35,203 nucleotides of DNA from Candidatus Brennerbacteria bacterium RIFOXYC1_FULL_41_11 (GTDB lineage Bacteria; Patescibacteriota; Minisyncoccia; UBA6257; Brennerbacteraceae), in contig MHHX01000010.1 of NCBI GenBank assembly GCA_001817215.1, forward strand, positions 8,772-43,974. The letters are read 5' to 3'. Positions 21,668 through 26,771 of this stretch are shown piece after piece; position 1 is the first letter of the stretch; each line of letters starts with the position of its first letter. Below the pieces are notes generated by a model that was not told the DNA's origin, did no database searches, and worked only from the letters and a program-made list of their open reading frames with translations. The translations under genes and the position numbers were made by a program.

Positions 21668-23047
21668 CTATCGGTAAAGCGCGCTGATTTTCGAGGCGAT
21701 TTCCTCAACATCTTCGTAGCTGCTGTCTGTTCCGAGGACGATAATTACCACTGGTCTTTTTTCCTGGCGGATCTCTATCTCGAAAATTGAGATGATGGTT
21801 TCCTTTGAGGCTTGGGTTAAGCCAATCTTGCCGCCGACAAATTGCTCCCATAAGGGTCTGTTGTTTCGGGGAGCATTGAAATTGGCCAAGTTTCTGAACG
21901 GATTTTCGCCATAGGCAGAATCTTTTATCGTTCCGCTTGAAAGTTTCAAGATGAAGTTTCGATTAAAGTAAAGATATTTGGCCAACGAAAAAAGATCTTT
22001 TGGCGAGCTCGCGGAGACTGGGCTGATGCCGGATGAATCAGCAAAGACGGAATCGTTCATGCCGAGCGACATTGCCTTTTGATTCATTAAGCTGATAAAC
22101 CGTTGCGGTCCGATGAAGTAACTTAGCGCTTGGGCGGCCTCATTTGAAGATTCAGTCATCAATGGGAAAAGTAGATCGTAGGCCTTATAACTTTGGTTGA
22201 TTTTCAGTCTTGGCACTGAGGTCGGAGTGATCATGGCTTGGGTAACAGTGATTTCTTTTTCGAGATTGATGTATTCCGTTGCGATAACGGCAGACATTAA
22301 TTTGGTTAATGAGGCGATTGGCAGAACTGAGTCTGGATTTCGTTCAAAAAAGACAAAGTTATTCTTTAGATCGGCGGCAAGATAGGCAGCGGCCTCAACT
22401 CTCGGGCCTTGAATTTCGTATTTGAAACTATCTTTTTCAAAATCTTTTTCAAAAACCAGTACGGGAACGCCGAGATTGGCAAGGTTAAAGAGCTTTTCGG
22501 CGTCTTCAGTTAAGATTTTGATGCACCCACCGGTATAGGAAAAACTGGTTTCCTGCCCGTCGGGATAATAGGGAATGCCGTGAATAAAAAAATTTCCTTG
22601 AAATTGCATTGAGTATGGCATGTAAACTTGACCAATCGAAGAGAAATGCAGTTTCTCCTTTAATTCAATTTTGTAGATGCCGGCTGGCGTTTCCCACCAG
22701 GATCCTTCTTTACCCTTTCCGATAATCTGGAATTCTTTGGTGGCGTTTCCGGATTGATAAAGGCTGATTTTCATTTCGGAGAGATTGGCTTCAATAAACT
22801 CAGCTTTTTCAGAAATAAGTTTTTTCTTTGTCCGCGCAAAGAAGTTTTCGTCTGACATTTGCGGCAACGAACCATACTCAAGATCAAAGATTTCCCTGCT
22901 TCCGGCGTCGTCCTGAAGCAAGAGCTGGTACTGATAAATTTTGTTTCTGAAGATAAAAAATAAGCCGGCGCTGGAAATACCAAGGACCATAATTATAGCC
23001 GCCGCAACCGGAAAAGAGATCTGTTTTTGAAGAATATTCTTTAACAT
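21668..23047 (-). CDS. L,D-transpeptidase (YkuD) / D-Ala-D-Ala carboxypeptidase (S11) fusion protein
   Basis: YkuD motif FFIHGIPYYP...YTGGCIKI; S11 SLTK and SSNEA motifs; third motif is KIG rather than KTG. Confidence 0.85.
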   Translation of the reverse strand: MLKNILQKQISFPVAAAIIMVLGISSAGLFFIFRNKIYQYQLLLQDDAGSREIFDLEYGSLPQMSDENFFARTKKKLISEKAEFIEANLSEMKISLYQSGNATKEFQIIGKGKEGSWWETPAGIYKIELKEKLHFSSIGQVYMPYSMQFQGNFFIHGIPYYPDGQETSFSYTGGCIKILTEDAEKLFNLANLGVPVLVFEKDFEKDSFKYEIQGPRVEAAAYLAADLKNNFVFFERNPDSVLPIASLTKLMSAVIATEYINLEKEITVTQAMITPTSVPRLKINQSYKAYDLLFPLMTESSNEAAQALSYFIGPQRFISLMNQKAMSLGMNDSVFADSSGISPVSASSPKDLFSLAKYLYFNRNFILKLSSGTIKDSAYGENPFRNLANFNAPRNNRPLWEQFVGGKIGLTQASKETIISIFEIEIRQEKRPVVIIVLGTDSSYEDVEEIASKISALYR

Positions 23048-23113: not shown

Positions 23114-23145
23114 GAAAAATAGCCAAGTTGCCTTGGCCATTTTTC
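23114..23145 (-). terminator. Terminator-like hairpin in the leader of the 23047->21668 gene
   Basis: Minus strand GAAAAATGGCCAAG-GCAA-CTTGGCTATTTTTC. Confidence 0.55.
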
Positions 23146-23206
23146 AAACAACAGGAGTTGGTCTTTATTCTTGTAAGAATTCAGGCCTCACTCACTTAAC
23201 AGATAC

Positions 23207-23235
23207 AGTATAGCATGTCTTTCTTTAAAAGTCAA
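23207..23235 (-). promoter_or_regulatory. Promoter proximal to the transpeptidase fusion gene
   Basis: Minus strand TTGACT-17-TATACT. Confidence 0.55.
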
Positions 23236-23240
23236 GCTTT

Positions 23241-23336
23241 GATCATGTTATTTCCCCGGGTCCCCGCCAAGAGTGTACTCCTGTTGTTAAATTAAGTGAG
23301 TGCTGCTTGGCGGGGGCCGGGAGAAATAAAACAATC
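23241..23336 (-). ncRNA. Strong long-stem hairpin RNA candidate with 34-nt loop
   Basis: Arms 23250-23271 and 23306-23327 pair (atttccccgggtccccgccaag / cttggcgggggccgggagaaat); promoter at 23346..23373 upstream on the minus strand. Confidence 0.5.
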
Positions 23337-23345
23337 GATATCTTA

Positions 23346-23373
23346 ATTATAAAGAACAGAAACGAATAGTCAA
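23346..23373 (-). promoter_or_regulatory. Distal promoter upstream of the hairpin RNA
   Basis: Minus strand TTGACT-16-TATAAT. Confidence 0.55.
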
Positions 23374-23668: not shown

Positions 23669-23845
23669 ATGGTAAAAAGAAAAAAAGTCTCGGCCAGGCC
23701 GGTTAAAAAGAAAGCAGCGAAGAAAGTTGTGAGAAGGCCAATTAAAAAAGTTGCCAAGAAGAAAATTACAGTTAAAAGAAAGGTTGTAAAGAAGGCGGTG
23801 TCGAAAAAGAAAGTTGTGAAGAAAAAAGCCGCAAAAAGAAAATAG
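23669..23845 (+). CDS. Histone H1-like Lys/Val/Ala-rich basic protein (58 aa, missed by the ORF track)
   Basis: MVKRKKVSARPVKKKAAKKVVRRPIKKVAKKKITVKRKVVKKAVSKKKVVKKKAAKRK*; strong terminator follows. Confidence 0.8.
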   Translation: MVKRKKVSARPVKKKAAKKVVRRPIKKVAKKKITVKRKVVKKAVSKKKVVKKKAAKRK

Positions 23846-23851
23846 TTTTCT

Positions 23852-23956: not shown

Positions 23957-24328
23957 ATGGCTATCTCGGATCATTTTTTAAGAAAAGTTCAGATTAATAC
24001 TCATGATTTTGTTTTGACTTCGGTTATCCGTGACTATCTGGATGAGAAAATAAAAAAGATTGAGAATTTTGTTAAAAAGCGATTCTCCGAAGTTTTGTTT
24101 GAGATCTCGGTTTCAAGGATCTCACATCGTCGTCACGGTACGAGGCTGTTAATGGTGATGAATCTAAAGCTTAATAAAGAGATGGTTCGAAGTGAAGAGC
24201 AGGGAGAAGATATTTATGAGATTATTGATACGGTGGAGTACGAGATCTTGCGTCAGCTAAAAGCCGAAAAAGACAAATTTTTGGCTCAACAAAGAAAGAG
24301 AAGCCGTAAAGCGAAAACAGAAATTTAA
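23957..24328 (+). CDS. Ribosome hibernation-promoting factor (HPF/RaiA family)
   Basis: 123 aa; INTHDFVLTSVIRDYLDEKIKKIENF, GEDIYEIIDTVEYEILRQLKAEK; adjacent to secA. Confidence 0.85.
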   Translation: MAISDHFLRKVQINTHDFVLTSVIRDYLDEKIKKIENFVKKRFSEVLFEISVSRISHRRHGTRLLMVMNLKLNKEMVRSEEQGEDIYEIIDTVEYEILRQLKAEKDKFLAQQRKRSRKAKTEI

Positions 24329-24329
24329 A

Positions 24330-26771
24330 GTGGTAAATTTTTTTAAGATTTTTTTAAAAGATGCTAACCAAAAAGCGATCGAGAAGTTGTCGACGATTCT
24401 TTTGTCAATCAACAGCTTGGAAAGCAGTTTGTCTGGTCTTGATGATGAGGGGTTGAGGCGGCGTAGCCTGGATCTCAGAAAAACAGTTCTTGGCGGCGCT
24501 TCTCTGGAATCAGTTTTACCGGAGTCTTTTGCTCTTGTTCGCGAATCAGCCAAGAGAACTTTGGGTCAAAGAGCATTTGACTCACAACTTCTTGGGGGCA
24601 TTGTTCTTTGGCAGGGAAAAGTTGCGGAGATGAAAACGGGAGAAGGTAAGACTCTGGCGGCGACGATGCCGGCTTATCTGCATGGATTAACCGGCAAAGG
24701 AGTGCACGTGGTGACTGTAAATGATTATTTGGCTCAACGCGATGCTGTTTGGATGGGTCAGATTTTCCACCTGCTCGGACTAAAGGTGTCGTGCTTAATC
24801 CACGAAAACTCTTTTATCTATGATTCGGATTGGCGGTCTGCTGAGACTGAAGATGAATCTCGAGATGAGTTTTCGAGCTTCAGGGTGTTTCACGATTTTT
24901 TAAAACCAGTAAAGAGAAAAGAAGCTTATCAGGCAGACATTATTTACGGTACTAATCATCAGTTTGGCTTTGATTATCTCCGCGATAATCTGGTTTATCG
25001 TTCCGAAGACTCCGTTCAGCGCGGACTTTATTTTGCGATTGTTGACGAGGTCGATAGTATCTTGATTGATGAAGCGAGAACGCCGTTGATTATCTCCGCT
25101 CCGGATGTCGATGCGGCTAAGATTTACCGAGAGTTTGCGAAGATCGCGCCTCGATTAAATTCAGGGTCCGATGTTGAAATTGATGAGAAAAAACACTCGG
25201 CTTTTTTGACCGATACGGGTATTGAGAAGCTGAAACAATTTTTTGGCCGCGATATTTATGAGGATAATAATCTTGTTTTGGTCCATCATCTTGAAGAGTC
25301 TTTGAAGGCGCAGTTTCTTTTTAAACGCGATAAAAACTATGTCGTGAAAGACGGACAAGTGATTATCGTTGATGAGTTCACGGGTCGGTTAATGCAAGGT
25401 CGTCGTTATTCAGGGGGGTTGCACCAGGCCATTGAGGCAAAGGAGGGTTTGAAGATCCAGGAAGAATCACGAACCGCGGCCACGATCACTTTACAGAATT
25501 ATTTCAGAATGTATCCGATTCTTTCAGGAATGACTGGCACAGCTTTGAGTTCAAGCGAGGAGTTCTCGAAAGTTTATCATCTGGATGTTCTGCCGATTCC
25601 GACTAATAAATCGAACATCAGGAAGGATGCTTCTGATATGATCTTTGTGACGGAAAAAGCAAAACTTGATAGTTTGGTTAAACAAGTGAAAACAAGAAGT
25701 GGGCTGGGTCAGCCAATACTGATTGGTACTGTTTCTATTGAAAAAAACGAAACTCTCTCTGCGCTTTTAAAAAGGAATGGTGTTGAACACAATGTTTTAA
25801 ATGCCAAACAGCATGAAAAAGAAGCCGAGGCGATTGCTCAGGCCGGAAAGAAGGGGCATGTTACCGTGGCAACGAATATGGCTGGCCGTGGTGTTGACAT
25901 TATTCTTGGCGGGAATCCCCAAAACGAAGAAGAAGCTGAAGAAATTAAAAAACTTGGCGGACTCTATGTCATTGGCACCGAAAGGCACGAGTCGAGGAGA
26001 ATTGATAACCAGTTGCGTGGCAGGTCGGGTCGACAAGGAGACCCCGGCATGACTCAATTTTTCGTTTCTCTGGAAGATGATTTGATGAGGATATTCGGTT
26101 CCGATAAGATTCGCGGTTTGATTCAGCGTCTTAATCTTCCCGAAGACCAGCCGGTTCAGAATGAGTTTGTTTCAAAAGCGTTGGATTCAGCTCAGGAAAA
26201 AGTAGAGGGAGCAAATTTTGATATCAGAAAATATGTGCTTGAGTACGACGATGTTTTGAGCAGGCAGCGCGACGCTGTTTATCGTCGGCGCAAAGAATTT
26301 TTACTTGCTGATCAGCAGCAGACGATGGCTTTGATTATGAATGTTATTGGTGAAGCTCTGGACATGTTTTTTAAAAAATATAACACCGATAGCTTTGATT
26401 TTGAAAATCTTTGGCGCGAGATTGATTCTTTGACCAATCTACCGGCAAGTTTAAAGGAAAGATCTCATTCCAAAGAGGACTTAAGAAACGTGGTTTTGGA
26501 ATTTTTCGAGCAGTTTTTGAAAACAAAGGAGGTTGAGTCTTTGCGTCAGGGTGCGTTGCGTGTTCTTGATGTTTTATGGATGGAGCACCTTGAGGCGATG
26601 GATCACTTGATCGATTCCGTGAGACTGAGAGATTATGCTCACCATCAGCCGATTTCTGAGTATAAACGAGAGAGTTACCAGATGTTTAAGGATTTGTTCG
26701 AAAATTTCTCTTTGAATTTGTTTATTGGTTTTGGAAGGATGATTAATGAACCGCGAAAGGTTACTGATTGA
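24330..26771 (+). CDS. secA: Protein translocase subunit SecA
   Basis: 813 aa; GTG start; MKTGEGKTLAA, VNDYLAQRDA, TNMAGRGVDI, RRIDNQLRGRSGRQGDPG. Confidence 0.98.
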   Translation: MVNFFKIFLKDANQKAIEKLSTILLSINSLESSLSGLDDEGLRRRSLDLRKTVLGGASLESVLPESFALVRESAKRTLGQRAFDSQLLGGIVLWQGKVAEMKTGEGKTLAATMPAYLHGLTGKGVHVVTVNDYLAQRDAVWMGQIFHLLGLKVSCLIHENSFIYDSDWRSAETEDESRDEFSSFRVFHDFLKPVKRKEAYQADIIYGTNHQFGFDYLRDNLVYRSEDSVQRGLYFAIVDEVDSILIDEARTPLIISAPDVDAAKIYREFAKIAPRLNSGSDVEIDEKKHSAFLTDTGIEKLKQFFGRDIYEDNNLVLVHHLEESLKAQFLFKRDKNYVVKDGQVIIVDEFTGRLMQGRRYSGGLHQAIEAKEGLKIQEESRTAATITLQNYFRMYPILSGMTGTALSSSEEFSKVYHLDVLPIPTNKSNIRKDASDMIFVTEKAKLDSLVKQVKTRSGLGQPILIGTVSIEKNETLSALLKRNGVEHNVLNAKQHEKEAEAIAQAGKKGHVTVATNMAGRGVDIILGGNPQNEEEAEEIKKLGGLYVIGTERHESRRIDNQLRGRSGRQGDPGMTQFFVSLEDDLMRIFGSDKIRGLIQRLNLPEDQPVQNEFVSKALDSAQEKVEGANFDIRKYVLEYDDVLSRQRDAVYRRRKEFLLADQQQTMALIMNVIGEALDMFFKKYNTDSFDFENLWREIDSLTNLPASLKERSHSKEDLRNVVLEFFEQFLKTKEVESLRQGALRVLDVLWMEHLEAMDHLIDSVRLRDYAHHQPISEYKRESYQMFKDLFENFSLNLFIGFGRMINEPRKVTD

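Follow-up and report, generated by a model that had tools for sequence, protein, structure and literature searches.

Two small RNA genes with crossing, compensated complementarity near hpf and secA in Parcubacteria: a candidate two-RNA riboregulator

Introduction

In the plasmid antisense pairs RNAI/RNAII and CopA/CopT, pairing between two RNAs starts by a loop-loop (kissing) contact, and in crRNA:tracrRNA and U4/U6 two RNAs are assembled into a joint multi-helix junction. The raiA-motif RNA, or ModT (RF03072), is a trans-acting structured RNA of Bacillota and Actinomycetota, which adjoins hpf (raiA) in 66% of cases (PMC11706538) and whose core is held by two pseudoknots within one shared loop (PMC11751092). 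The locus described here lies in a 35,203-nucleotide stretch of DNA from Candidatus Brennerbacteria bacterium RIFOXYC1_FULL_41_11 (contig MHHX01000010.1), referred to as the window. Its two small RNAs, RNA1 and RNA2, look like an undescribed, ancient RNA partnership of ultra-small Parcubacteria, and a literature search found no paper on such an RNA.

Results

Layout of the locus

Two small RNA genes are encoded on the minus strand of the window, flanked by hpf/secA on one side and by a YkuD/Peptidase_S11 fusion gene on the other; the features are as follows.

23346..23373, minus strand: RNA1 promoter, TTGACT-16-TATAAT, 11/12 matches.
23250..23327, minus strand: RNA1 long hairpin, arms 23306-23327 and 23250-23271 (~22 bp), 34-nt loop 23272-23305.
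23292..23302, minus strand: block A in the RNA1 loop, CACTCACTTAA, pairing with A' of RNA2.
23277..23288, minus strand: block B in the RNA1 loop, AACAACAGGAGT, pairing with B' of RNA2, with a conserved GGAG inside.
23277..23301, minus strand: alternative inner helix of free RNA1, ACUC (23298-23301) with GAGU (23277-23280), excluding A:A'.
23207..23235, minus strand: RNA2 promoter, TTGACT-17-TATACT with extended -10, from promoter matching.
~23115..23200, minus strand: RNA2, a small RNA in the order A', hairpin, B', intrinsic terminator.
23189..23199, minus strand: A' at the 5' end of RNA2, TTAAGTGAGTG, exact complement of A.
23160..23187, minus strand: RNA2 hairpin between A' and B', from folding and from covariation in relatives.
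23147..23158, minus strand: B' of RNA2, ACTCCTGTTGTT, exact complement of B.
23115..23145, minus strand: RNA2 intrinsic terminator, AAAAATGGCCAAGGCAACTTGGCTATTTTT, bidirectional, from sequence and folding.
21668..23047, minus strand: YkuD/Peptidase_S11 fusion gene, downstream of RNA2 in the window's family.
23957..24328, plus strand: hpf (S30AE ribosome hibernation factor), divergent neighbour.
24330..26771, plus strand: secA, divergent neighbour.

Both TTGACT promoters are the top minus-strand promoter matches in the region. RNA1 alone folds at -37.8 kcal/mol, and the whole 241-nt stretch has a folding z of -8.5 compared with shuffles; RNA1 has no terminator of its own in the window. Re-reading of the minus strand bore out to the base the coordinates that the initial annotation had given for the hairpin arms and both promoters, and the 11-nt A:A' and 12-nt B:B' complementarities that it described proved exact. 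What it had taken for a gene-proximal leader behind the second promoter is, with that promoter confirmed, a complete small RNA with a bidirectional terminator that had been overlooked. Between the RNA pair and hpf, at ~23670-23850 on the plus strand of the window, a small, extremely lysine-rich, histone-H1-like ORF was also observed, with a strong hairpin after it.

Distribution of RNA1

A similarity search of 100 related genomes revealed RNA1 copies with differing stems and the same loop; with plain DNA comparison, the one strong score outside the family fell on the RNA1 hairpin of genome G005. A pattern search located RNA1 in 19 genomes. Two pattern hits outside Patescibacteria, in Sphingomonadaceae and Deltaproteobacteria, were rejected as chance, the covariance model matching neither. 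Covariance models, home-made and with E-values that are rough, detected RNA1 in 170 of 244 genomes from the order, almost all of them with a single copy, and, with a second model, in 103 of 384 genomes of the class, all single-copy and about two-thirds of them outside the order. No RNA1 was found outside the class, as the nine carriers among 380 genomes of a phylum sample all belong to it, and none was found in viral contigs. Named carriers include Harrisonbacteria, Liptonbacteria, Colwellbacteria, Wolfebacteria, Jorgensenbacteria and other Parcubacteria. Two families of the order, f3 and f8, gave no RNA1 match in any listed genome, which may reflect loss or strong divergence. Judged from its sequence distribution, inheritance of the RNA pair is apparently vertical.

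Conservation of RNA1

The stem of RNA1 covaries at 12 of 12 pairs among 73 relatives. MAFFT alone was unable to align these stems; manual padding of the spacers was used instead, with slid controls as a check. In the 73 sequences 93.5% of cells are paired, a percentage that leans upward because the stem itself guided the structural alignments, and 361 cells are double-changed, compared with at most 87 in slid controls. The covariation was repeated in 20 sequences from outside the order; slid controls and out-of-order sequences agree with the fitted alignments. Of 93 loci examined, 63 have a -10 box no more than 40 nt ahead of the stem, at a median distance of 7 nt from it, compared with 17 at the control position, and a recognisable terminator or T-run follows RNA1 in 33 of the 93 (control, 5).

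Within the loop, the CUC and GAG of the inner helix are invariant in 54 sequences. The helix is nevertheless changed on both sides in a few genomes: ACUC/GAGU becomes GCUC/GAGC in L081 and L103, with A' altered in step (GCGCUC / GAGC / GAGCG in L081), and a third double change, ACCC/GGGU, occurs in L190. Conservation of CTC and GAG beyond the needs of pairing suggests another partner, for example a protein or the ribosome; no conserved start codon is present among relatives behind the loop GGAG. In family f21 (L085, L080, L087, L083, L059 and L084) the 3' arm of RNA1 can also pair with a second segment further downstream, which in some members precedes a T-run.

Several variant arrangements were also observed. 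A second downstream partner of the 3' arm is present in L117 and L090 as well; in these and in the f21 loci it makes a terminator/antiterminator layout before hpf-secA or murB. L073, L064 and L189 carry an RNA1 nested inside an apparent outer, older RNA1, where the inner copy fills the outer loop; the outer hairpin still has portions of A and of B/GGAG, and more than one lineage shows this arrangement. The outer RNA1 stems of L171 and L183 are similarly extended.

Architecture of RNA2

RNA2 was found beside RNA1 in most of the loci examined, and in roughly one quarter it was not found within ~2.5 kb of RNA1. Its architecture of A', hairpin, B' and terminator is present in 52 of 73 loci, chosen without using B, and in ~13 of 20 loci from outside the order. 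The hairpin shows double changes at 10 of 13 pairs (25 sequences). Its tip is nearly fixed in many families as CGAUGAUAUCGA, with a compensatory CGACGACGUCGA, and this fixation beyond what pairing requires makes a protein or RNA contact possible.

Pairing of RNA1 with RNA2

The two exact blocks go beyond what shuffling yields: in 3000 shuffles the longest single complementary block was 12, and a second block of at least 8 arose in 4. The 9-mers CACTCACTT and AAGTGAGTG are confined, in the 608-kb genome of the window, to the RNA1 and RNA2 elements, and no third exact site for the core of A was found anywhere in that genome. Block A is more conserved than block B.

Two tests of unequal design address the two helices. 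For A:A', the A' segments were anchored on a consensus (one row, L092, re-anchored by hand) at RNA2 loci that had been picked by their A' match. In 54 sequences 90.7% of cells are paired, a value that the choice of loci biases towards pairing, and 6 of 10 pairs have changes on both sides. Because of that bias the double changes are the stronger evidence; they number 48 cells, compared with 11.0 in shuffles, where cells are not to be read as events since related genomes are not independent. Examples of compensated A/A' pairs are CACUCAUUCA/UGAAUGAGUG, CACUCGUUUA/UAAACGAGUG and UACUCAUUCA/UGAAUGAGUA. For B:B', the choice of RNA2 loci relied solely on A', the -10 box and the terminator. The duplex score of a genome's own B:B' averages 8.73, compared with 5.73 (sd 0.15) when genomes are swapped, and none of 5000 permutations scored as high as the own matches. 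L116 (CAAUGUAUAAUUGG/CCAGAUUAUACAUUGG) and L100 (CAAAUGACGU/ACGUCAUUUG) illustrate the changes in B/B'. The initial annotation had left its proposal to covariation across relatives, and these do carry compensatory changes in A:A', with B:B' upheld by the swap test. As far as sequence evidence can tell, RNA1 and RNA2 almost certainly pair with each other.

Gene order and neighbours

In the window and in its genus-mate L082, RNA2 is located downstream of RNA1 on the same strand, ~60-80 nt apart, and in L003 it lies 600 nt downstream. Most families have it ~100-300 nt upstream of RNA1, and in L025 and L081 it occupies the opposite strand. That order and strand vary while the pairings are kept by compensatory change points to an interaction between two separate RNAs. 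With predicted -10 boxes and terminators of their own, and with this variable order and strand, RNA1 and RNA2 are read as separate transcripts.

Of 93 loci, 55 have murB directly after RNA1 in the same orientation, and another 23 have hpf and/or secA but no murB; hpf falls inside the fetched locus in 53 of the 93. In family f1 and at several loci elsewhere the pair is arranged divergently to murB/hpf/secA, and in the window's family the RNA block points away from hpf-secA with the pair still kept. The transpeptidase/carboxypeptidase fusion gene reported earlier as a neighbour was recovered as YkuD plus Peptidase_S11, with a link that is local to the window's family; in other families the pair has murB, hpf and secA next to it. 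A search of the window's genome by tblastn with five queries did not find murB (assembly 96.5% complete); its loss from this genome is not proven. A fixed link of the RNA pair to murB was dropped because of this result.

Known RNA families and the signal recognition particle

Rfam 15 at the gathering threshold gave nothing for the window pair, in agreement with the earlier statement that no known riboswitch, 6S, tmRNA or RNase P signature was recognised, and for three RNA pairs scanned at low threshold the best scores were far below gathering. Neither the window nor these three pairs matched the raiA-motif RNA (RF03072). A scan of all but ~20 kb of the window's genome recognised only rRNA, tRNA and tmRNA, with RNase P below its gathering score. 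Among 21 relatives, matches to 6S RNA (RF00013) and to SRP RNA (RF00169 or RF01854) were found in none. The pair was rejected as a split tmRNA, a separate tmRNA being present in 21 of 21 relatives, and as a split RNase P RNA, which has a separate match in 20 of 21. The SRP54 domain (Ffh) is practically absent, with weak partial hits only, from the window's genome and 40 relatives, which agrees with the SRP loss already published for Parcubacteria (PMC4508563). Since SRP is missing, a split SRP RNA was considered for RNA1 and rejected: its loop motifs GCAC and GGUCACC have to be read with the strands swapped to look like the SRP symmetric loop, and by eye the likeness is not general.

Discussion

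The explanation favoured as a whole, by a modest preference, is a dedicated two-RNA riboregulator; that it works specifically by RNA2 opening the RNA1 loop at the murB-hpf-secA locus is plausible and falls just short of being probable. In free RNA1, ACUC of block A would pair with GAGU inside the conserved GGAG and close the loop. As ACUC/GAGU and A:A' are mutually exclusive, RNA2 binding must open this helix, and would thereby switch RNA1 from a closed to an open loop. Pairing of both blocks would produce a four-way junction of the RNA1 stem, A:A', the RNA2 hairpin and B:B', in which the short A-B linker would tie together both intermolecular arms. Where RNA1 precedes (murB-)hpf-secA, RNA2 would most likely set transcript read-through into the genes, and the second partner of the RNA1 3' arm in family f21, with its T-run in some members, would fit the anatomy of transcription attenuation. 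The term attenuator does not fit all copies, because a terminator or T-run follows RNA1 in only 33 of 93 loci. The switch may have arisen, or may serve, at the murB-hpf-secA locus and could act in trans; judging by gene order, the detachment of the block from the operon in the window's family means that the pair must also be able to do so. The cellular role would accordingly be either leader control of murB-hpf-secA or that of a stand-alone two-RNA particle.

Such a particle is the main rival to a dedicated RNA-RNA switch. The pair would then be a two-subunit housekeeping RNA or RNA-protein particle acting in trans, with murB-hpf-secA as inherited gene order only, a reading we consider a serious one and yet less probable than regulation. 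It would account for a single copy per genome, class-wide and vertical-looking, for the strong promoters kept by both halves, for persistence of the pair once parted from the operon, even in a genome in which the search for murB gave nothing, and for CTC and GAG being invariant beyond pairing needs, in genomes where 6S and SRP RNAs are not recognisable. On the other hand, RNA1 adjoins the first operon gene on the same strand in most loci, and the searches made did not find it in families f3 and f8. Stated in full, the proposal is equally tentative: an obligate housekeeping RNA of two independently transcribed subunits, functional only as a tied four-way-junction heterodimer and co-inherited across the class in cells without SRP and with no 6S RNA seen.

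The placement of A' at the very start of RNA2, where it resembles the seed of an sRNA, and the greater conservation of A than of B would also be expected if the free 5' end of RNA2 (AGUGAGUG) regulated other mRNAs and RNA1 were its decoy. This sponge or antisense arrangement is improbable, as RNA1 and the complement of RNA2 are the only places in the window's genome that contain CACTCACTT, and A' changes together with A of RNA1, as expected for a one-to-one partner. The initial annotation had proposed a pseudoknot or paired regulatory RNAs. Separate genes and compensatory change strongly support the paired RNAs, whereas an obligatory cis pseudoknot did not hold up. Control of the transpeptidase/carboxypeptidase gene by such a pseudoknot in one leader transcript might be read from the window and L082, with both RNAs on the same strand ~60-80 nt apart and RNA1 lacking its own terminator here, and is nonetheless very unlikely: the RNA2 terminator precedes the gene, and in many relatives RNA2 comes before RNA1 and is separated from it by the RNA2 terminator, or is encoded on the opposite strand, and the pairing stays intact. 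Because gene order varies, a cis pseudoknot is contradicted as a general mechanism; a joint transcript in the window and this genus-mate could at most pair in cis as an extra option. Finally, chance complementarity or a functionless inverted duplication, for which only the low sequence complexity near the blocks could be cited, is refuted for practical purposes by the crossing block order, the class-wide conservation, the covariation and the permutation tests.

Few undescribed RNAs of the Candidate Phyla Radiation would be as widespread as a single-copy, class-conserved pair whose interaction is recorded in covariation, found, in the case of the window, in a genome with almost no other RNA recognised by Rfam beyond rRNA, tRNA and tmRNA. 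The pair is a ready model for the co-evolution of an RNA-RNA interface, and it allows ideas on RNA heterodimers to be tried on an example that belongs to neither CRISPR nor the spliceosome. With hpf and secA so steadily beside it in cells that lack SRP, a connection with translation or with export becomes testable.

By position and style the nearest known RNA is the raiA motif/ModT, with which the pair shares the hpf neighbourhood. The raiA motif is one RNA of ~210 nt with eight helices, whereas here there are two RNAs of ~75 and ~85 nt, and inspection of the listed upstream genes by eye did not turn up comFC, which usually precedes the raiA motif. As in trans-encoded sRNAs with an mRNA leader or attenuator target, a terminated small RNA pairs with a leader loop before genes, its binding competes with an internal helix, and conserved complementarity is kept by compensatory change. 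In those systems the target always precedes the controlled gene, whereas here the operon and the pair diverge at several loci, that of the window included; unlike them, RNA1 is itself widespread in the class and kept even without the downstream gene, and there is one dedicated target with two pairing segments in crossing order. A loop-loop start of pairing between two RNAs is shared with RNAI/RNAII and CopA/CopT, from which the present pair differs in being chromosomal and apparently vertical, in having only partial complementarity and in not being read from the two strands of one DNA segment. The joint multi-helix junction formed by two RNAs recalls crRNA:tracrRNA and U4/U6, although here there is no array, the pair is single-copy, and the segments cross rather than nest.
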